NCBI GenBank assembly: GCA_029819875.1
Contig: JALGVG010000001.1
Location: 1 to 34,936, forward strand
Direction of reading: 5' to 3'
Source: Candidatus Zipacnadia bacterium
Lineage (GTDB): Bacteria; Armatimonadota; Zipacnadia; Zipacnadales; Zipacnadaceae
Length of the DNA stretch: 34,936 nucleotides
This document shows positions 4,922-30,886 of the stretch, one piece after another. Numbering within the stretch: position 1 is the first letter of the stretch; each line of letters opens with the position of its first letter. Under the pieces are notes generated by a model, which did not search any database, was not told where the DNA came from, and saw only the letters and a list, made by a program, of their open reading frames with translations. A program made the translations under genes and the position numbers.

Positions 4922-5035
4922 TCACGCCACAAGCTGGGTGTGCAACATGGCCGGCTGGCAGGTAGAAGTGCTGCTGCAGGAGAAAAGACACCAAACAGCA
5001 AGAAGCGTAGCACCGCTTCAACGGAGGCAAGAGGG

Positions 5036-5905
5036 GTGCAAGATATCACCATCGCAGCCATACAAATGAACGCCCGCCTGGGGGAGGTGGAGCGCAACCT
5101 TGACAGCATAGAGCGGTGGGCACGCCAGGCGGCGGCCGCAGGTGCCGAGCTGGTGTGTTTCCCCGAGTTGTGCATATCAGGACACTGGTGCGCCGGCGAA
5201 GTATGGAGCGTTGCCGAGCCAGTGCCGGAAGGGCCCAGTTGCCGGAGACTGGGCAAACTGGCCCGGGAGCTGGGCATCTACCTGTCCGTGGGCCTTGCCG
5301 AACTGCAGGCAGGCATCGCCTACAACACGCAGGTCATCATCGGGCCGACGGGCGTGATAGGCAAGCAGCGCAAGCTGCACATGTCGGCGGACGAGTACTT
5401 CCACTTCCGCACGGGGACGCGGATTCCGGTACTCGATATCGGCAAGTGCCGGCTGGGCATCGGCATTTGCTACGACAACATCTTCCCCGAGGTGGCGCGG
5501 ATTGCGGCTGTCAAGGGGGCGGAAGTGTACCTGATGCCGCACGCGGCGCGCATTGGGGCATGGCCCCAGACAACAGGGGAGCAGCAACAGGTGGTGGCGA
5601 CCAACAAGAAGTTGTGGGCCAAGGTGTACGCCGCCAGGGCGTATGACAACGGCATGTACGTGGTGGTCTGCAACCAGGCCGGGCCGGCCGGCGAGGAACC
5701 GCCGACCAATCACGGGGGCGGGATCATGGTCTTCGACCCGACCGGGGAGTTGATAGCCGAGTCGCGCACCCGCGTCATCGAGGAGGAAATGGTTGTCTGC
5801 CGGCTGCAAGCAGAACTGTTCGCGCAGCGGCGCAAGGCCAGTTGCTTCAACCTGCAAACGCGGCGGCCGGAGATATACGGCGAGCTGACCAAGCCCACAG
5901 ACTAG
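5036..5905 (+). CDS. Carbon-nitrogen hydrolase (nitrilase superfamily)
   Basis: Glu-Lys-Cys triad contexts CFPELCISG, KQRKLHMSADEYFHF and GIGICYDNIFPE. GTG 5036 has GGAGG upstream (5022-5026). The ORF track starts further upstream at 4940. Confidence 0.88.
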   Translation: MQDITIAAIQMNARLGEVERNLDSIERWARQAAAAGAELVCFPELCISGHWCAGEVWSVAEPVPEGPSCRRLGKLARELGIYLSVGLAELQAGIAYNTQVIIGPTGVIGKQRKLHMSADEYFHFRTGTRIPVLDIGKCRLGIGICYDNIFPEVARIAAVKGAEVYLMPHAARIGAWPQTTGEQQQVVATNKKLWAKVYAARAYDNGMYVVVCNQAGPAGEEPPTNHGGGIMVFDPTGELIAESRTRVIEEEMVVCRLQAELFAQRRKASCFNLQTRRPEIYGELTKPTD

Positions 5906-5944: not shown

Positions 5945-7318
5945 GTGTCGAGTACGAAGATAGTGCTAATCGGGGCCGGAAGTGTCAAGTTCACCCAGGG
6001 CCTGCTGGCTGACATCATGCTTTCGGACTTTTGTGACGAATGGACTGTAGCGCTGGTGGACATCAATCCCGAGGCGCTGGAGGTCGCGCACGGATTGGCC
6101 AAGCGCATGCTGCAGGTGCGGCCGGCTCCGGTGCGGCTGGAGGCCAGTACCGACCGCAGGGACGTGCTGGAAGGGGCCGACGTGGTCGTCACCACCATCG
6201 GCGTCGGTGGCCGCCGCGCGTGGGAGACCGACGTGTTTGTGCCCCGCGAGCACGGCATCTACCAGCCGGTGGGCGATTCGGTGATGGCAGGGGGGCTGTC
6301 GCGCGCGCTGCGCCAGATTCCGCCGATGGTGGAGATTGCCCGCGATGTCTTGGCCCTGGCACCCGGGGCGCGGTTTTACAACTATGCCAACCCGATGACC
6401 GCCATCTGCCGCGCGGTGCAGTTAGCCACCGGCGCGGAACTGGTGGGCCTCTGCCACGGGGTCATGGGGTCGTTGCGCGACATCGCCGACCTCCTGGAGT
6501 TGAACGACGCGGACCTGGTGGGGCTGACCGTCGGCGTCAACCACCTGACATTCCTGCTGAACCTGCGCTGGCGCGGCCAGGATGCCTGGCCCCTGCTCAA
6601 GCAACTGGGCGGGGTGGAACTAACCGAGGCCGACAAGCGGCAACTGGCCGTACTTGCGCAGATGGGGGCAAGCTGCCAGGCGGTCGGCGCGATGCGCGAG
6701 CAGCACCCGTTCAGTTGGGAGCTGTTTGACCTCTACGGTGCCCTGCCGTTGGTGGGTGACTGCCATGTCTGCGAATTCTTCCCCGCTCTGTTCAGAAACG
6801 GCTCTTACTACGGCAAGACGTTAGGGGTGGACGTCCACTCGTTCGAGGCGATAATCGAGCGCGATGACCGCAACTACGAGCAGATGGTGCGGCGGGCGCG
6901 GGGCGAGGAGCCGATAGACGAAAGCCTGTTCGACCGCGCGCCGGGAGAACACGAGCAGTTGCTGGACATAATCAAGTCGGTGCTGGCCGACGAGGGTCGG
7001 ATCTTTTCAGCCAACGTTCCCAACAACGGGGCAGTGGCCAACGTGGCCGACGAGATGGTGTTGGAGGTGCCCTGCGTGTTCCAGGCGACGGGGGCCTATC
7101 CGTTGGCCATCGGCGAGGTGCCGGCGTGGCTGGCCGGCATCCTGGCCCAGCGCCACTGCGTGACGGAGCTGACGGTTCAGGCGGCCCTCAACGGCTGTGC
7201 CAAGACCTTTGCACAGGCGCTGCTGGCCGAAGGGATGGCGGACTCGATCGCGGCGGCCCAGCGGCTGGCTGATGATCTCATCAAGGCCCAGGCCGAGTAC
7301 CTTCCGCAATTTGCGTAG
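5945..7318 (+). CDS. Glycoside hydrolase family 4 protein (alpha-galactosidase/6-phospho-glycosidase-like, NAD-dependent)
   Basis: N-terminal NAD-binding IVLIGAGSVKFTQGLLADI, plus FYNYANPMTAICRA, LCHGVMGS, GVNHLTFLL and GDCHVCEFFP. GTG start with upstream GGAAGGA. Confidence 0.88.
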   Translation: MSSTKIVLIGAGSVKFTQGLLADIMLSDFCDEWTVALVDINPEALEVAHGLAKRMLQVRPAPVRLEASTDRRDVLEGADVVVTTIGVGGRRAWETDVFVPREHGIYQPVGDSVMAGGLSRALRQIPPMVEIARDVLALAPGARFYNYANPMTAICRAVQLATGAELVGLCHGVMGSLRDIADLLELNDADLVGLTVGVNHLTFLLNLRWRGQDAWPLLKQLGGVELTEADKRQLAVLAQMGASCQAVGAMREQHPFSWELFDLYGALPLVGDCHVCEFFPALFRNGSYYGKTLGVDVHSFEAIIERDDRNYEQMVRRARGEEPIDESLFDRAPGEHEQLLDIIKSVLADEGRIFSANVPNNGAVANVADEMVLEVPCVFQATGAYPLAIGEVPAWLAGILAQRHCVTELTVQAALNGCAKTFAQALLAEGMADSIAAAQRLADDLIKAQAEYLPQFA

Positions 7319-7330
7319 ATTACCGAGGCG

Positions 7331-8971
7331 ATGATCGGGATGAATCTGGACCTGTTTGATGCACATTGCTACGTGGGACGGTTCCAGCATTACGACAGCC
7401 AGTATTTCTATTCAGCGGAGGAGCTGCTGGCGGAGATGGACCACTACGGCATTGCCGAGGCGCTGGTGTGCGACACCCTGTCCCGGGAAATAGACCCGCG
7501 GGCGGGCAACCCGCGCATCGTGAAATTATGCCGCGAGCAGCCGCGCCTGTACCCTTCGTGGTCGCTGGCCCCTCCGCTGCAGTCGCTGCCATTCCCGTTG
7601 GACGAACTGCTGGACAGGATGGCCGAGGCCGGCGTGCGGGCGGTGCGCTTCTTCCCCGGTCATCTCAAGTTTCCCATTGAGGACTGGGCGCTGGGCCCTA
7701 TCCTGGAGGTGCTGGAGGAGGGGCGGGTGCCGGTTTTCTTCGACCCCACCCCGCAACTGCGTGCCACCGACCGGGACATGACGGACTGGGATGCACTGGT
7801 GCGCATCTGCAAGGCCCATCCCAAGCTGCCGGTCATCGCCACCGAGCAGCGGATGTACTGGTACGACCGCACCTGGTACCCGGCGCTGGAGGCGTGTGAC
7901 AACCTGCACATTGAATTAAGTCCGTTCTGGATGTACAAGGGCATAGAGTTCGTGTGCCGGGAGTACGGTGCCGACAGGTTGATTTTCGGCACGCGCCTGC
8001 CGGTGCGCGACGCGGGGACGACTATCGCCCAACTGCAGTATGCAGAAGTCAGCGAGCAGGAGAAGCAGGCCATTGCCGGGGGGAACCTGCGGCGGCTGCT
8101 TGCGGAGGCGCTGCCCGGCCGAGAGCCGGTGCCACAGGCCAAGAGGGAGCCGGTGAAGCTGCCACCGCCGGACCCGGCAAAGGGCAAGTGGTACCTGGCC
8201 ATGCGAGAGGCCCAGGAGCCGTTCGAGGGCGAGGTGCTGATAGACACGCACACGCACATCGGGCTGGGCGCCCCGTACTTTTTGCCGGATTCGGAGCCCG
8301 AGGAGCTGGTTCACCAGCTTGACCGTCACGGTTTTCAGAAGATGGTGACGTTTGCATTTGCCGGCCTGATGGGAGACTGGACGTGGGGGAATGATTTTGC
8401 GCACCAGGCAGCCCGCCAGTTCCCCGGGCGCATTCTGCCGCTTGCCGCCGTGAACCTGTGGAACGAGGCGGAGATGGTCAAGGAGATGACGCGCTGCTGC
8501 GATGAGCTGGGCTTTTGGGGGGTGAAGCTGCACCCGTGGTGGAACCAGTATCCCGAAGCGGGCGAGCACGTGCGGCGGTGCTGCGAATTCGTCCACGAGC
8601 GGGGACTGATCATCGTCAACCACTACTGGGGGCCGCCGCAGTTGCTGGACGAGCTGGCGAGCGAATTCCCCAATGCCTGGATGATAACCGGGCACCTGAC
8701 ACTGGACGACGGCTACTGCCGGGTGGTGAACAGGCACGAGAACGTGTACGTGGGTAGCTGCTTGCCCATCTTGCGCGGGGAAGTGGAGGCGGCGGTGTCG
8801 CGCCTGGACGTGGACAAGATATTGTTCGGCTCCGACGTCCCTGACTTGCCCATTCCCCTGGGATTCGGCTCGATACTGTATGCGCGGATAGATGACGAGG
8901 CCAAGCGCAAGATAATGGGCCTCAATGCCCAGCGGCTGCTGGAACTGGTAGCCAAGAACCGCAGTCAATAG
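7331..8971 (+). CDS. Fused double amidohydrolase-like (Amidohydro_2-type) protein; only the C-terminal domain keeps metal-ligand motifs
   Basis: Two repeated modules. Module 1: LFDAHCYVG...LIFGTRLPV. Module 2: LIDTHTHIG...LIIVNHYWG...MITGHLT...ILFGSDVPD. Confidence 0.82.
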   Translation: MIGMNLDLFDAHCYVGRFQHYDSQYFYSAEELLAEMDHYGIAEALVCDTLSREIDPRAGNPRIVKLCREQPRLYPSWSLAPPLQSLPFPLDELLDRMAEAGVRAVRFFPGHLKFPIEDWALGPILEVLEEGRVPVFFDPTPQLRATDRDMTDWDALVRICKAHPKLPVIATEQRMYWYDRTWYPALEACDNLHIELSPFWMYKGIEFVCREYGADRLIFGTRLPVRDAGTTIAQLQYAEVSEQEKQAIAGGNLRRLLAEALPGREPVPQAKREPVKLPPPDPAKGKWYLAMREAQEPFEGEVLIDTHTHIGLGAPYFLPDSEPEELVHQLDRHGFQKMVTFAFAGLMGDWTWGNDFAHQAARQFPGRILPLAAVNLWNEAEMVKEMTRCCDELGFWGVKLHPWWNQYPEAGEHVRRCCEFVHERGLIIVNHYWGPPQLLDELASEFPNAWMITGHLTLDDGYCRVVNRHENVYVGSCLPILRGEVEAAVSRLDVDKILFGSDVPDLPIPLGFGSILYARIDDEAKRKIMGLNAQRLLELVAKNRSQ

Positions 8972-9270: not shown

Positions 9271-10419
9271 TTATTCGTTCGCCACCTGGGGCGGGAAGGC
9301 GAAGTCCAGCCACTTGGCAGCGACGGCAGCTTGCTGGCAGTCACCGGCATGGAAGTACATGCGGAAGTTGAACACCAGGGCATCGCCCTTGGGGAGGGCC
9401 AGGTCGCCGCGCACTGACCAGTCACCGGTGAAGTCGTGCTTGCCCCACTGGTTGACGGTGAACAGCCCGTAGCCTCGCACATGCCAGGTAGTGGGGTAGT
9501 CGTAGTTGTCGGGATGGTCGAAGATCGCCACGCCGCAGGGCTGCTGGCCGATCCTTCCATAGTAGTCCACCCACGGTGCGCGCTTACCCCAGGTTTCACC
9601 TTCCCCGATGCCGCCGTAGGCGTTGACAATAGTGCCGGTTCCTTTGCCGTCGGCGTTCAGTTCAGGATTGAGGCGGATGGTGAGGGTGCCGGCTTCCTTG
9701 GTGTCTCCAAAGAATACGCCGCCATACTCCGCCCGCCAAATGATGCGCCAATCCATAATGCGCGCGTCGTCAGGGGTGTTGTAGACACGGATGCAATACT
9801 CTTCCAACATGAGGGGTTTGCCGTCAGCGTCGGTCCAATCGTTGACAGCGCACAGTTGGCCGTAGACAGGGCCGCTGGTGACGGACTTTTCGCGGTTGCG
9901 GCTATAGCCGTGGCCGGGTTCTTCGCTCCAGCAGTCCACGCCATTGACATCGCCCTGCGCGGTATACAGGGACTTGTGGTGGATGTGGTCGCCCTTGGAG
10001 CGATCATCGAATATCTCGCGGGTCATGTGCACGCCGCCCGGCCCGATGACCGGGTAGCAGTAAGGGCGCACGACGTTGGGGCCGGCGTTCCAGGTGGTGA
10101 ACAGCTCGCCGTTGACCGTGAAGTCCACGGTGTCGCCGTTGTCCTGAACCGCCACGTTGTTTTCTTGCGTCGTCTCGGCAGTGACCTTGAAGCGCTTTGT
10201 CTCGCCGGCCGCGATCTGGGGGACGATGAAAACCATTTCCTTGTCCGTGCACTGGGCCACGAGCTTGCCGACTTCGTTGCCTGCCTCATCAAGCTCCACC
10301 AGGACATGGTTCCCGGCGCACTTGCACTCTGCCTCACAAGGCACAGAGACTATGACATTGTTCCTATCGTGGGGGCCGGCGCTTACTTGCAGGATCTTGG
10401 CATCATCACAACACGGCAT
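9271..10419 (-). CDS. DUF6807 (PmoA-like) family protein with a cysteine-rich N-terminus
   Basis: Core motifs RPYCYPVIGPGGVHMTREI, DHIHHKSLYTAQGDVNGVDCW and HVRGYGLFTVNQWG. ATG 10419 preceded by AAAGGAGGTT. N-terminus MPCCDDAK...VPCEAECKCAGN. Confidence 0.78.
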   Translation of the reverse strand: MPCCDDAKILQVSAGPHDRNNVIVSVPCEAECKCAGNHVLVELDEAGNEVGKLVAQCTDKEMVFIVPQIAAGETKRFKVTAETTQENNVAVQDNGDTVDFTVNGELFTTWNAGPNVVRPYCYPVIGPGGVHMTREIFDDRSKGDHIHHKSLYTAQGDVNGVDCWSEEPGHGYSRNREKSVTSGPVYGQLCAVNDWTDADGKPLMLEEYCIRVYNTPDDARIMDWRIIWRAEYGGVFFGDTKEAGTLTIRLNPELNADGKGTGTIVNAYGGIGEGETWGKRAPWVDYYGRIGQQPCGVAIFDHPDNYDYPTTWHVRGYGLFTVNQWGKHDFTGDWSVRGDLALPKGDALVFNFRMYFHAGDCQQAAVAAKWLDFAFPPQVANE

Positions 10420-10600
10420 TATCTGCGAACCTCCTTTGTTATTGGAAACAGGCTCAATTGTGTCGTAATCAAGGCTTGCACGCAACAGCTGGTAATTCGC
10501 CGCCTGCGGCTGCCGTTCCTGCCTGGCGGCTAAGAAGGCGAATTTGCCCGCTGTTTATAGTATTGCGCCTGCAGGCGGCCGAGCATCAACGAGCGGCCAA

Positions 10601-14763: not shown

Positions 14764-15444
14764 ATGGTGAATACCCGCAAACGCAGCAAGATGATAGTGG
14801 GGACGATAGCGGCAGTGGTGGTCGTGGCTGGGGTAGTGATGCTGGTGCGGCGGACGCCCTCCCCGTCCGTCCCTTCGGAGAGTCAACAACCCGGCGGCAC
14901 GGTGAAGGTCAGCCAGCCCGTCGTCAGCCACGCGGAAAAGGGGGCCCTGGCGTGGCAGCTTCAACTGCGGGAGATGAACATCTCGGCCGGCGGGCGAACC
15001 GTGGCCGCCCAAGGCCTGCGGGAGGGCCTTATCTACGACAGCGAGGGCAAGCCGATAGTGCGGGTGACGGCGGACCGCATCAGCGGAGACACCACGACGC
15101 GCAATTTCTCGGTGACCGGCAATGTAACAGTGACCACCCCCAAGGGGGTCGTGTTTTCCACCGACACCGTCAAGTGGATACAGGACGAGGGGAAGCTGGA
15201 ATGTCCGGGCCTGGTGACGATGCGCAGCAAGCAGATGACGGTCACCACGACGGGGCTGGAGTTTTACGTAAACCAGGACCTGGTTAAGTGTCCCAACTTC
15301 ATAAAGATGGTCAACGGCGAAAACACGCTGGTGGGGCGCAACCTGCGCTACAATATCAAGACCGCCAGCTTCGAGCTGGAGAGCGTGCAGGCGCTGTTCA
15401 ATGCCGAGCAAGTTCGAGCGCTGGCACAGGAGGCGCGCCGATGA
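14764..15444 (+). CDS. lptC: LptC-like LPS-export periplasmic protein
   Basis: Single N-terminal TM helix, then REGLIYDSEGKPIVRVTADRISGDTTTRNFSVTGNVTVTTPKGVVFSTDTVKW...VTMRSKQMTVTTTGLEF. ATGA overlap with the OstA-like gene. Confidence 0.72.
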   Translation: MVNTRKRSKMIVGTIAAVVVVAGVVMLVRRTPSPSVPSESQQPGGTVKVSQPVVSHAEKGALAWQLQLREMNISAGGRTVAAQGLREGLIYDSEGKPIVRVTADRISGDTTTRNFSVTGNVTVTTPKGVVFSTDTVKWIQDEGKLECPGLVTMRSKQMTVTTTGLEFYVNQDLVKCPNFIKMVNGENTLVGRNLRYNIKTASFELESVQALFNAEQVRALAQEARR

Positions 15445-16403
15445 GGTTGCTGCCGCGTAAAATAGCAGTCATTGCGCAGGCCGCCATGCTGGCCGCAGTG
15501 CTGGCAGCGGGGTTGCAGGTAGTGGTGGGCGAGCAGGGCCAGCCGGCCCAGGAGCAAGCAAAGAAAGAAGACCAAGAGGACAAGGTTCGCTTGCAGGCCG
15601 ACCATGTCCGCTACGATGCCGACGCCAAGAAATATATCCTCACCGACATACCCTCCGGCCAGCCGGGCGACGAGTACGAGCAGGTTATCTACAAGCACAA
15701 GGATGTCACCCTGTACTGCGACCGGTCGGAATACGACGAGGCCAAGGATACAGGTATTGCAATCGGGCACCTGAAGGTGACTGCCAAGGACGCGATCATC
15801 ACCGGCACGACCGTGACGGCGGATTTCGGCAAGAAGATCATCACTATCAGCGGCAACGTGGTTATCGTCGCCCAGAAGAAGCGCCCCCAGTCCCGGCAAC
15901 AAAGCAGCCACCAAGCCGGCACTGAGGCCGGTTCGGGCAACCAGGCACCCGCCGAGGGGCAAAAGACCCAGGCAAAGGGCAACCAAGAGGAGGGCCTGGA
16001 GAAGTACAAGTACAAGAAAACCACCATCTGGTGCGACCGCATCGAGTATCACTACGACGACAAGCAGAGGGTTGCCTACATCCGGGGTCCGCTGAAAGCC
16101 GTCCAGGAGGATAAGACAGCGTGGGCGGACAAGGCAATCTACCACGAGCGGGACGATATCCTGGAAGTGGAAGGCAACGTGCGGGTGGTAAGCAAGGAAG
16201 GGGATGAGTTCCGCTGCCCGCGCGCGGTAATCGCGCTGGACGACAACTGGATGGAAGTGGAAAGGGTGGAGGGGCTGATAGTCCGCAAGAAGAAAACGAG
16301 CGCCCAGGGCCAGGGGCAGGGCGGTCAAGCACAGGGAAGCAGTGCAACGTCCAGCGGTTCGCGTGCCGAAGAGAGCCAGCCTGCACCCAGCCCGCAGCAG
16401 TGA
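15441..16403 (+). CDS. LptA/OstA-like protein with two OstA-type segments separated by a Q/G-rich linker
   Basis: VRLQADHVRYDADAKKYILTDI...TVTADFGKKIITISGNVVIVAQKK and TTIWCDRIEYHYDDKQRVAYIRGPLKAVQEDKTAWADKAIYHERDDILEVEGNVRVVSKEGDEFRCPRAVI. Hydrophobic N-terminus. ATGA coupling with lptC. Confidence 0.72.
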   Translation: MRLLPRKIAVIAQAAMLAAVLAAGLQVVVGEQGQPAQEQAKKEDQEDKVRLQADHVRYDADAKKYILTDIPSGQPGDEYEQVIYKHKDVTLYCDRSEYDEAKDTGIAIGHLKVTAKDAIITGTTVTADFGKKIITISGNVVIVAQKKRPQSRQQSSHQAGTEAGSGNQAPAEGQKTQAKGNQEEGLEKYKYKKTTIWCDRIEYHYDDKQRVAYIRGPLKAVQEDKTAWADKAIYHERDDILEVEGNVRVVSKEGDEFRCPRAVIALDDNWMEVERVEGLIVRKKKTSAQGQGQGGQAQGSSATSSGSRAEESQPAPSPQQ

Positions 16404-22391: not shown

Positions 22392-23255
22392 ATGAGGCCG
22401 GCGAGCAAACTGAAGGTCAGGCTGGTGCAGCTCAATCCTCGGCTGGGCGACGTCGAAGCCAACGTCGATTTGCACATGGAGGCGATCAAGCAGGCGATCG
22501 CCGACGATGTCTCGCTGATTATATTCCCCGAGTTATCGCTTACCGGCTACTACCTGCGTGACCTGGCCCCGGAGGTGGCGATGCGCGTTGAGGGGCCGGT
22601 CATGAGCCAGCTGGCACGCCTCAGCAAAGAAATCGGCATCGTGGTCGGCTTCGTGGAGGAGGACGAGCAGTTCAGTTTCTTCATCGCGCAGGCGTACCTG
22701 GAGGGCGGCGCCGTGCGGCATGTCCACCGCAAGGTTTACCTGCCCACCTACGGGATGTTCGACGAGGGCCGCTATTTCACCGCCGGCCGGCGCCTGCGCA
22801 CCTTGCGCAGCAAATGGGGGCCGATGGGCATCCTCATATGCGAAGACCTCTGGCACCCCTCGGCGCCTTACGTGCTGTCGCAAAGCGGCATGTACTACTT
22901 GATTGCTTGTGCCTCAAGCCCCGGCCGGGGCATCCATGACCAACATATCGCCACCGCCGGCACCTACGCCAACATACTTACCACCTACGCACAACTTTTC
23001 CAGGTTTACGTGCTGTTTTGCAATCGCGTGGGGTACGAGGAAGGAGTGTGCTTCTGGGGCGGGAGCTGCGTCATCGGCCCGCAAGGCGTCAGCGTGGCAG
23101 CCGCTCCCCAACTTGAGCCGGCGGTGCTGGATGCGGAGCTTGACGTTGCCGCCATCCGCCGGGTGCGATTGCAAGCGCCGCTGACCGACGACGAGAACCT
23201 CGACCTGACCATCCGCGAGCTGGAGAGGGTGCGTCGTGAGCGAGCTGAAGATTGA
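22392..23255 (+). CDS. Nitrilase-superfamily protein, probable glutaminase partner of the adjacent NAD+ synthase
   Basis: IIFPELSLTGYYLRDL, HRKVYLPTYGMFDEGRYFTAG and GILICEDLWHPSAPYVL resemble the N-terminal amidase domain of glutamine-dependent NadE. Overlaps nadE by 20 bp. Confidence 0.87.
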   Translation: MRPASKLKVRLVQLNPRLGDVEANVDLHMEAIKQAIADDVSLIIFPELSLTGYYLRDLAPEVAMRVEGPVMSQLARLSKEIGIVVGFVEEDEQFSFFIAQAYLEGGAVRHVHRKVYLPTYGMFDEGRYFTAGRRLRTLRSKWGPMGILICEDLWHPSAPYVLSQSGMYYLIACASSPGRGIHDQHIATAGTYANILTTYAQLFQVYVLFCNRVGYEEGVCFWGGSCVIGPQGVSVAAAPQLEPAVLDAELDVAAIRRVRLQAPLTDDENLDLTIRELERVRRERAED

Positions 23256-28504: not shown

Positions 28505-30886
28505 CTAGCCGGCAGGCGTAAACTCCAGCAGCAAGGCACCTGCGGGATAATCCAGCTCCGGGCGGCCGGGACAGCGCTCGCGGCCATCCTTGTTGTATGC
28601 CGTCACCACGACAGGGCCGCCCAGGCCGGGCAAGCGGATACGCGTGGCAGGTGTGTCGCAAAACAGCAGCCAACGATCGTTATCGCGAGCCAGTTCCACC
28701 ACGGCATCCCGCGCCCATACGCGGAGAATTTCGTTGCCGGCCAGCGATACTATCAGCGGATCTTCGGCAGCACCCGTGCAGGTGACGATGGGACCGCTGC
28801 CGGCTTGTCGCAGCAAGTAGATGTCCCCTTCATCGGCATGCTGATGAAGGGTGACCTGTTGGCCGGAATTGCCCGCGCCGCCTACCAGCTTCAACAGCCA
28901 GCGGCGGGATTCGGCGGGCGGCCGTCCGTCCAGGGCGAACCAGACGACCGCTCCTGGAGACGGCCCGTTACGCACCTGCAGACCACCCTCCACGGTCAGG
29001 TTATTGTTCGCCAGGTTACCGGCCAGGGCCTCCACCCCTGTCCCATGCAGGCGCAGCAATCCCTGCCGGGGGAGGCAGTCGAGTAGCCCTTCAGAAGGCC
29101 CCAAACGAGCGGTTTCGCCCACCTTCTCACGCACCAGCGCCGGCAGCGCGTCGGTGGATTGACCGCGCCAGCGCTGCGGACCAAGCGCGGGCGGGGGCGC
29201 CTGCGGCTCGGCAGCGAAATAGGCAGCACCGGCACCGGCGCCGGGCGAAACTTCCAGGAGCAGGTCAGGTCTGCGGGGATAGGCATGCAGGGGGAACAGG
29301 TTACCCATCCGGCACCATCCCCCCAGCTCGTAGATGCTGTCCAGCAACGCGTCATCGCGAGCCCGGTACATATCCTGGGGGCCGAAGGCAACAGCGACAC
29401 CAATCGGCGCCGGCCGTATCAGGCGCTGGAGGAATATGCGCCCTGCAAGGGGGGCGATGCCCCAGCGCGTGGGGTCGCGGGCGACGTTGAAGTAGTCCAG
29501 CCGCGTCTTGGCGGCGCGCGTATCGTAGGTGAACAGGATGAGAGCGTCCACGTCGTTAAGTGCGGCGTAGGCGGCGGCCTGGAGCAGCCCCGCAGCACGG
29601 TAGGGATTGGGCCAACAGATGTTGAACTCGCGCAGTACCAGAGGCTTGCCCAGCACGCGAGGACCGCACAGACGCCGCAACAAGCTGTCGGCCATGTGCG
29701 CGCCAAGGGGGTTGTTCATCGTAACGAAGGCGGGAGGTCGCCAGTTGCCGGCGGGAAACATCGGGTGGCTGAAGTAGTAGTTGCAGCCGATCGCGTCCAG
29801 CTCCGCGGCCACGGAGAACACGTCGGCAGGATCTGTGGTGTCGGTGACCGCCAACAGCGGTACCTTGACACCCAGGCGGCGGAGATTGTCGCGCATGGTG
29901 GCGAAGTACTCGCGGTGGACATCGGCCATGAACCGCCGGACGTCGGCCGTGCGGCCCGCCGAGGGCGGACAGGCATCAGAGATGCCCGGTAACATCACCG
30001 TCCCTGCTTCTATGCTTTCGCCTGCTGCCAGCACGCGCCGGCCGGCATGGCCGCCGCTCCAGGCCTTGCGCAGCGCCTCGGTCGTCGAGAACCGCCGGCG
30101 TAGCCAGAAGTTCCACCTGCGCACCAACTCTTGCCGATAGGCAGGTAGCAATTCACGCCACTTGTCCTTGGTGATGAACAGGCCGTTTTCGTCGCAAAGC
30201 TCGATCATGCAAACGGCCGGGTCGTCGCAATATGATAAGCCGGTATAAGGGTTGACGTGTTCGGAGAGCAACTGGCGCGCGTACTGTAGCTGCAGCTCTA
30301 TCAAGCGCTCGGAGAAGACCGCATACGGCTTTGCCCCGCGGCCTAGCTGCTCACCATTTACCACGCCCTCGCTCTGGTAAAATGTCCGGTAGCTGAGCAG
30401 GTCGATATACACATATATTCCACGCTGCTTGAGGGCGGCAATCCAGTAGTCGAGTGCATCCAGTTTACGAGGATCTACGCGGGGGTATTGTCCCGCCCGG
30501 TCAGGCGGGAGCAATCCCTGCGGACCGTCGAGGTGATGGAAGCGGACGAGGTTGAAGCCGGCCCGCGCCAAGCGGTCGCAGGCGGCGTCAATGACATCAT
30601 GGGGTTGAAAGACGGCGTCGTTTGCGATGTTGATGCCCCAGAATACGGCGCGCCGCCCATTCTCGAAGTAGAAGTGACCGTCGGTTCCGGCAAACAGGAA
30701 GCCCTCGCGGCCGGCCGGAGCGGAGAGCGTGGGAGCAAAGTCCACCAGGCATGCATCCGGCAGCCGCGAGCCGTTGACGTCAAGATGAGGCACGTAGCCG
30801 GAGACGTCCAGCGATGGCAGCCCCTGCCCCGACCCGGCCCGGCAGCAGGCGGCGGCCAGCAACACGATCCAGCCCCAAGCGCTCAT
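28505..30886 (-). CDS. Secreted glycoside-hydrolase-like protein (clan GH-A/GH5-like TIM barrel plus C-terminal beta domain)
   Basis: Signal peptide; FYFENGRRAVFWGINIANDAVF, RLARAGFNLVRFHHLDG; candidate acid/base CMIELCDENGLF and nucleophile VLREFNICWPNP. 4-bp overlap with the upstream deacetylase. Confidence 0.75.
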   Translation of the reverse strand: MSAWGWIVLLAAACCRAGSGQGLPSLDVSGYVPHLDVNGSRLPDACLVDFAPTLSAPAGREGFLFAGTDGHFYFENGRRAVFWGINIANDAVFQPHDVIDAACDRLARAGFNLVRFHHLDGPQGLLPPDRAGQYPRVDPRKLDALDYWIAALKQRGIYVYIDLLSYRTFYQSEGVVNGEQLGRGAKPYAVFSERLIELQLQYARQLLSEHVNPYTGLSYCDDPAVCMIELCDENGLFITKDKWRELLPAYRQELVRRWNFWLRRRFSTTEALRKAWSGGHAGRRVLAAGESIEAGTVMLPGISDACPPSAGRTADVRRFMADVHREYFATMRDNLRRLGVKVPLLAVTDTTDPADVFSVAAELDAIGCNYYFSHPMFPAGNWRPPAFVTMNNPLGAHMADSLLRRLCGPRVLGKPLVLREFNICWPNPYRAAGLLQAAAYAALNDVDALILFTYDTRAAKTRLDYFNVARDPTRWGIAPLAGRIFLQRLIRPAPIGVAVAFGPQDMYRARDDALLDSIYELGGWCRMGNLFPLHAYPRRPDLLLEVSPGAGAGAAYFAAEPQAPPPALGPQRWRGQSTDALPALVREKVGETARLGPSEGLLDCLPRQGLLRLHGTGVEALAGNLANNNLTVEGGLQVRNGPSPGAVVWFALDGRPPAESRRWLLKLVGGAGNSGQQVTLHQHADEGDIYLLRQAGSGPIVTCTGAAEDPLIVSLAGNEILRVWARDAVVELARDNDRWLLFCDTPATRIRLPGLGGPVVVTAYNKDGRERCPGRPELDYPAGALLLEFTPAG

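Follow-up and report, generated by a model that had tools for sequence, protein, structure and literature searches.

The gene under study lies in a window of 34,936 nt, the whole stretch of Candidatus Zipacnadia DNA that was analysed. The open reading frame (7331..8971, +, stop codon included) shows the codon-position pattern of a genuine gene and encodes a fused double amidohydrolase of 546 aa, P0001. The Pfam family PF04909 matches both halves of P0001 separately. Module 1 (residues 1-268; 7331..8134, +) scored 63.9 bits (E about 2.2e-17 to 2.6e-17), and module 2 (residues 296-546; 8216..8968, +) scored 69.6 bits (E 5.1e-19), which passes the curated cutoff of 26.4 bits. Between them is a linker (residues 269-295; 8135..8215, +) that is weakly conserved by JSD. 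BLASTP of one half against the other gave one 53-residue match only (E 3e-5); the module-1 and module-2 family profiles were aligned over their full length (hhalign probability 99.9, E 5e-34, 18% identity). The AlphaFold2 model, built from P0001 and 39 relatives, contains two complete barrels (mean pLDDT 92.9, pTM 0.93), and the mutual arrangement of both barrels is predicted confidently. The first-pass annotation had described the same barrel plan twice in one 546-aa ORF; the ORF and all of the motifs that it quoted were found. The top structural matches of the model are PF04909 decarboxylases and uncharacterised single-barrel relatives, and no dihydroorotase family was matched by either half. 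The NCBIfam scan gave no informative equivalog for P0001, which reached no equivalog cut-off; the matches among 30 module-2 relatives scanned were scattered and weak, and a decarboxylase model was absent from the scans of P0001 and of these relatives.

Three genes follow each other on the + strand with short gaps: a carbon-nitrogen hydrolase similar to N-carbamoylputrescine amidase (4940..5905, start uncertain), a NAD-dependent glycosidase of the GH4 family (5945..7318), and P0001, which starts 12 nt after the GH4 gene, as had been reported. A DUF6807 protein is encoded directly downstream of P0001 on the opposite strand (9271-10485, -). Elsewhere in the window are a second carbon-nitrogen hydrolase (22392-23252) and two long ORFs (28508-30886 and 15288-16400), whose codon use is gene-like but which match no Pfam family at E 1e-4.

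In the alignment of the two modules, the five canonical metal-ligand positions are occupied by H12, Y14, D138, E172 and R222 in module 1; whereas they are H307, H309, H431, H455 and D502 in module 2. Therefore one of the five ligands (H12) is kept in module 1 and all five are kept in module 2. All of the coordinates that follow are on the + strand. In module 1 the HxH motif of beta-1 has degenerated to H12-C13-Y14 (7364..7372), D138 (7742..7744) replaces the metal His of beta-5, E172 (7844..7846) replaces the active-site His of beta-6, and R222 (7994..7996) replaces the metal Asp of beta-8. Module 2 has H307-x-H309 on beta-1 (8249..8257), K399 on beta-4 (8525..8527), H431 on beta-5 (8621..8623), H455 on beta-6 (8693..8695), and D502 on beta-8 (8834..8836). 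K399 stands at the end of beta-4, where binuclear amidohydrolases have their metal-bridging lysine. The earlier description of a degenerate metal site in module 1, with the HxH motif and the beta-8 Asp gone, is thus borne out and extends to the beta-5 and beta-6 His. Its wording that HxH was lost is right for the second His, replaced by Y14, and not for the first (H12), which is retained. The metal-ligand set listed for module 2 was found intact, with K399 as an addition. Judged from its sequence, module 1 is a PF04909 member by descent and not a functional metal enzyme. The label 'amidohydrolase family protein' on each half credits activity to a chain without a metal site.

Conservation of the degenerate first half in orthologs, a check that the first-pass annotation had suggested, was observed across the 84 module-1 halves collected. 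The canonical ligands number zero in 72 of these halves, one in 11 and two in a single half (L109), which has the HxH motif and lacks the other ligands. In module 2 none of the six residues (H, H, K, H, H, D) varies in the 83 module-2 halves collected, including the beta-4 Lys of the binuclear amidohydrolase subtype (K399 in P0001). Orthologs with both halves intact, the outcome that had been named as contrary evidence, were absent among the 84 module-1 rows. The same dead-then-live order is found in seven further pairs (L171-L177) and in the Halomontanus and Subdoligranulum pairs.

These rows also bear on whether module 1 binds a metal via alternate ligands. D10 is near-invariant (83/84), and in many rows E172 together with D or C at position 138 could in principle coordinate a metal. 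However, the counterpart of D10 is conserved in module 2 (D305), so D10 is probably structural, and in 34/84 rows no more than one of the five positions holds a residue that could bind a metal (H, D, E or C). No consistent alternate ligand set was found among the 84 rows, and such metal binding is considered very improbable. Somewhat less remote, but still improbable, is that module 1 might be a metal-free enzyme of its own, which would make the protein bifunctional. Metal-independent members are known in the wider superfamily, such as LigI (2-pyrone-4,6-dicarboxylate lactonase), and the strong conservation of module 1 would fit such an activity. Against this, the ligand positions hold no conserved acid-base set (most combinations occur once or twice in the 84 rows), and the pocket rim of module 1 is not specially conserved.

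The two modules are conserved to a similar degree. The mean pairwise identity, all against all, is 46.2% for module 1 and 45.5% for module 2, and the mean JSD conservation is 0.562 and 0.553, respectively; the value for residues 262-301 (the linker region) is 0.33. A higher conservation of module 1 (42.3% vs 36.5%) was seen in comparison with P0001 alone and was gone in the all-against-all comparison. As its conservation equals that of module 2, module 1 is under selection. Loss of the ligands by itself would look alike in a decaying, functionless duplicate in the source genome; but the equal conservation of the modules, their single ancient origin, and their retention in many phyla, also in split-gene form, leave almost no room for decay. 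Dead and live copies are paired again and again in several bacterial phyla and in one archaeon, which speaks for a dead copy that is kept as a working partner and not for a decayed leftover.

Homologues of P0001 were found in 57 of the 61 related genomes searched, and strong profile matches in 96 of 201 genomes drawn from the phylum. The contig scan recovered no relatives with the single sequence of P0001 and 46 loci with the alignment-based search. The loci span Armatimonadota (with Candidatus Zipacnadia and WS1), Planctomycetota, Poribacteria, Chloroflexota, Hydrogenedentota, Latescibacterota, Lentisphaerota, Omnitrophota, and Actinomycetota (Nonomuraea isolates); most named loci are metagenome bins, so that the taxon may be misnamed in some cases. 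The haloarchaeon Halomontanus rarus and Subdoligranulum variabile (Bacillota) come in addition from plasmid records.

In the tree of 67 halves, all module-1 halves lie on one side of a branch with a support of 99, and all module-2 halves on one side of another branch (support 91). The branching inside the two clades broadly matches. The halves were therefore already separate before most of the lineages diverged or exchanged genes. On this phylogenetic evidence, the pairing and the ligand loss are ancient. The 81 pairs comprise 54 fused proteins and 27 pairs of adjacent separate genes, although a few splits (e.g. L154) could be draft-assembly frameshifts. Nonomuraea endophytica DSM 45385 (L126) is one carrier of a split pair. 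The fused or split state changed at least five times on the tree with the pairing retained, as would be expected if the two chains work together. Together with the clustering by module and the adjacent-gene pairs, these changes imply that the duplication and the ligand loss predate the fusion. The proposal of an internal duplication within the P0001 gene is therefore not upheld, and a recent internal duplication is ruled out by the tree.

Several unusual arrangements were also observed. In Halomontanus rarus (NZ_CP119797.1), a second fused amidohydrolase of 562 aa (L178:8685-10373) adjoins the normal dead-live fusion. Its order is reversed: all of the ligands are present in the N-terminal barrel and lost from the C-terminal one. 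The genome of the window itself (L152; G000 contig C191, 46-983) also has a pair in reversed order, a partial live gene followed downstream by a dead module-1-like gene; within the tree set the dead gene is closest to the dead half of the reversed Halomontanus protein (28% identity). Another locus (L129; G000 contig C233:25166-26649) has two adjacent amidohydrolase genes, both with all metal ligands, and may show what such pairs were like before one of the two became inactive. In L171, L172, L173 and L174, a 2-kb gene lies between modules 1 and 2, in a single same-strand run headed by a DegT gene. A conserved gene between the separated modules was considered and rejected, as the intervening genes differ, such as GH42-like (L171) and Eco57I-type methylase-like (L174). 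A relative with 65% identity (L043:7989-9721, G045) has a stop or frame change in module 2, which is either an assembly error or a pseudogene.

The residues around the two pockets were compared for conservation. In module 2 the pocket rim exceeds the remainder of the barrel in conservation (a fraction of 0.011 of random draws reached the same level), and in module 1 it does not (0.20). The module 1 result points away from a conserved pocket in that barrel. It also counts against the possibility that module 1 is a ligand-sensing regulatory domain, in which the degenerate pocket would bind a substrate-like or product-like molecule without turnover and adjust module 2. The presence of Glu at the beta-6 ligand position in 49/84 rows, R174 in 50/84 and W200 in 50/84 is non-random and lies on the pocket side of the barrel; the conservation of E172 and R174 is a counterpoint to the reading of module 1 as a dead partner and could mean a repurposed pocket. 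However, the E-x-R pattern is absent in a large part of the family while the pairing persists. A regulatory domain is therefore thought unlikely, although it is the least unlikely of the other roles considered for module 1.

Only one residue is invariant in 84/84 module-1 halves, namely Arg180 (7868..7870, +), which is in the beta-6 to alpha-6 loop. The corresponding loop of module 2 has no conserved Arg. Arg180 is also present in module 1 of L171-L177 and of Subdoligranulum, and is absent from module 1 of Halomontanus. ACMSD requires an arginine of the adjacent subunit, Arg239, which follows His228 at a distance of 11 residues (PMC11650718). The His-to-Arg spacing in the gamma-resorcylate decarboxylase 3s4t is as in ACMSD (GHMGEGLPYSMWR); Arg180 is at +8 from the beta-6 position, compared with +11 in ACMSD. 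By analogy, and on account of its invariance, Arg180 is proposed as a candidate trans-acting arginine, which would be equivalent to the trans-subunit arginine of ACMSD. It could instead be purely structural.

The genes near the related loci were examined for functional clues. No GH4 homologue was found at any locus fetched, the nearest orthologs included, and GH4 is therefore ruled out as a family-wide clue. Of the 85 units, 12 have a gene for a DegT/DnrJ/EryC1 aminotransferase at a distance of no more than about 205 nt, and 11 of these 12 genes are upstream on the same strand. The association involves at least 10 separate changes on the tree, and the PLP lysine is retained in the aligned DegT neighbours. 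The genomes contain roughly 5-28 DegT genes each. With an expectation of about 1-2% per unit, an estimate that assumes a few thousand genes per genome, the binomial p is about 1e-7 to 1e-10, the units being not fully independent. Gfo/Idh/MocA oxidoreductases, a large and common family, are present at 17 loci. Other recurrent neighbours of the relatives include xylose-isomerase-like barrels, sugar-type ABC transporters, FAA hydrolases, and LacI. The Halomontanus pair is accompanied by an enzyme of the mandelate racemase family, a distant carbon-nitrogen hydrolase, and a DegT gene. Because of these combined neighbours of the relatives, the pathway is probably the catabolism of a sugar, a sugar acid or an amino sugar. 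The earlier suggestion of a sugar or lactone substrate, drawn from coupling to GH4, thus remains plausible through the sugar-catabolic neighbours of the relatives; whereas the GH4 linkage itself is, among the loci fetched, unique to the source genome. Since the neighbours in the window (GH4 and the carbon-nitrogen hydrolase) differ from those of the relatives, the substrate in the source genome may also differ.

Taken as a whole, we favour, with a probability of roughly 60%, the interpretation that module 1 is an obligate, catalytically dead partner that completes the active unit of module 2. The two barrels would form an intramolecular dimer of the kind that PF04909 relatives normally make as a homodimer. 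Module 2 would perform a metal-dependent hydrolysis or decarboxylation, and module 1 would stabilise it and shape its active site; judging from the neighbours in relatives, lactone hydrolysis would be the likeliest reaction. More speculatively, Arg180 of module 1 might enter the active site of module 2, as Arg239 of ACMSD enters the neighbouring subunit, so that the metal would remain with one copy and the arginine with the other. The first-pass annotation had proposed that the first barrel lost catalysis and became a scaffold or regulatory domain; the loss of the metal site is conserved across the family and fits a scaffold or partner role. The most far-reaching form of the interpretation is that these are ancient pseudoenzyme-enzyme amidohydrolase pairs, present in several bacterial phyla and an archaeon and repeatedly fused or split, in which an ancestral homodimer divided its active site, one barrel holding the metal and the other the crossing arginine. 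It is offered tentatively, at somewhat less than even odds. The arginine donation, if true, would be a clean case of a homodimer whose active site came to be shared out over two specialised copies. With the split pairs, a simple assay can be run with or without the dead subunit.

Eukaryotic signalling offers well-studied cases of pseudoenzymes paired with active relatives of their own. No published description of a dead-live amidohydrolase pairing was found in the open-access literature, nor of a metal-hydrolase pseudoenzyme pair that is kept, fused as well as split, over such a number of bacterial phyla. Among proteins of known structure, BB4693 (3irs) ranks first in the profile comparison for both modules, and CAC3332 (3cjp) ranks second for module 1; 3cjp also has the highest target-normalised TM-score (0.73) among the structural hits listed. 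Both are uncharacterised single-barrel proteins of PF04909. The COG3618-type sugar lactonases (L-fuconolactonase type) are also PF04909 members; they act in oxidative sugar pathways and are encoded beside dehydrogenases, enolase-superfamily dehydratases and FAA hydrolases. Similar neighbour genes occur near some relatives of P0001; however, P0001 itself reaches no NCBIfam equivalog cut-off.

The ACMSD/gamma-resorcylate decarboxylase group shares its fold and family (PF04909) with both modules, and ACMSD functions as a dimer (PMC11650718). The members of this group are homodimers or homo-oligomers of identical, active single-barrel chains; whereas in the P0001 family one partner has lost its metal site, and the partners are either fused or encoded by paired genes. 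The pseudo-dihydroorotase (pDHO) of the Pseudomonas aeruginosa ATCase is likewise an inactive chain of the amidohydrolase superfamily beside an enzyme partner, whose activity requires it (PMC7053772). However, pDHO belongs to the dihydroorotase branch and serves an unrelated aspartate transcarbamoylase in a dodecamer, whereas here the dead chain partners the live chain of its own family; no ATCase was present among the neighbours scanned. The nearest precedents are thus the trans-subunit catalysis of ACMSD and pDHO, and the dead-live pair differs from both.
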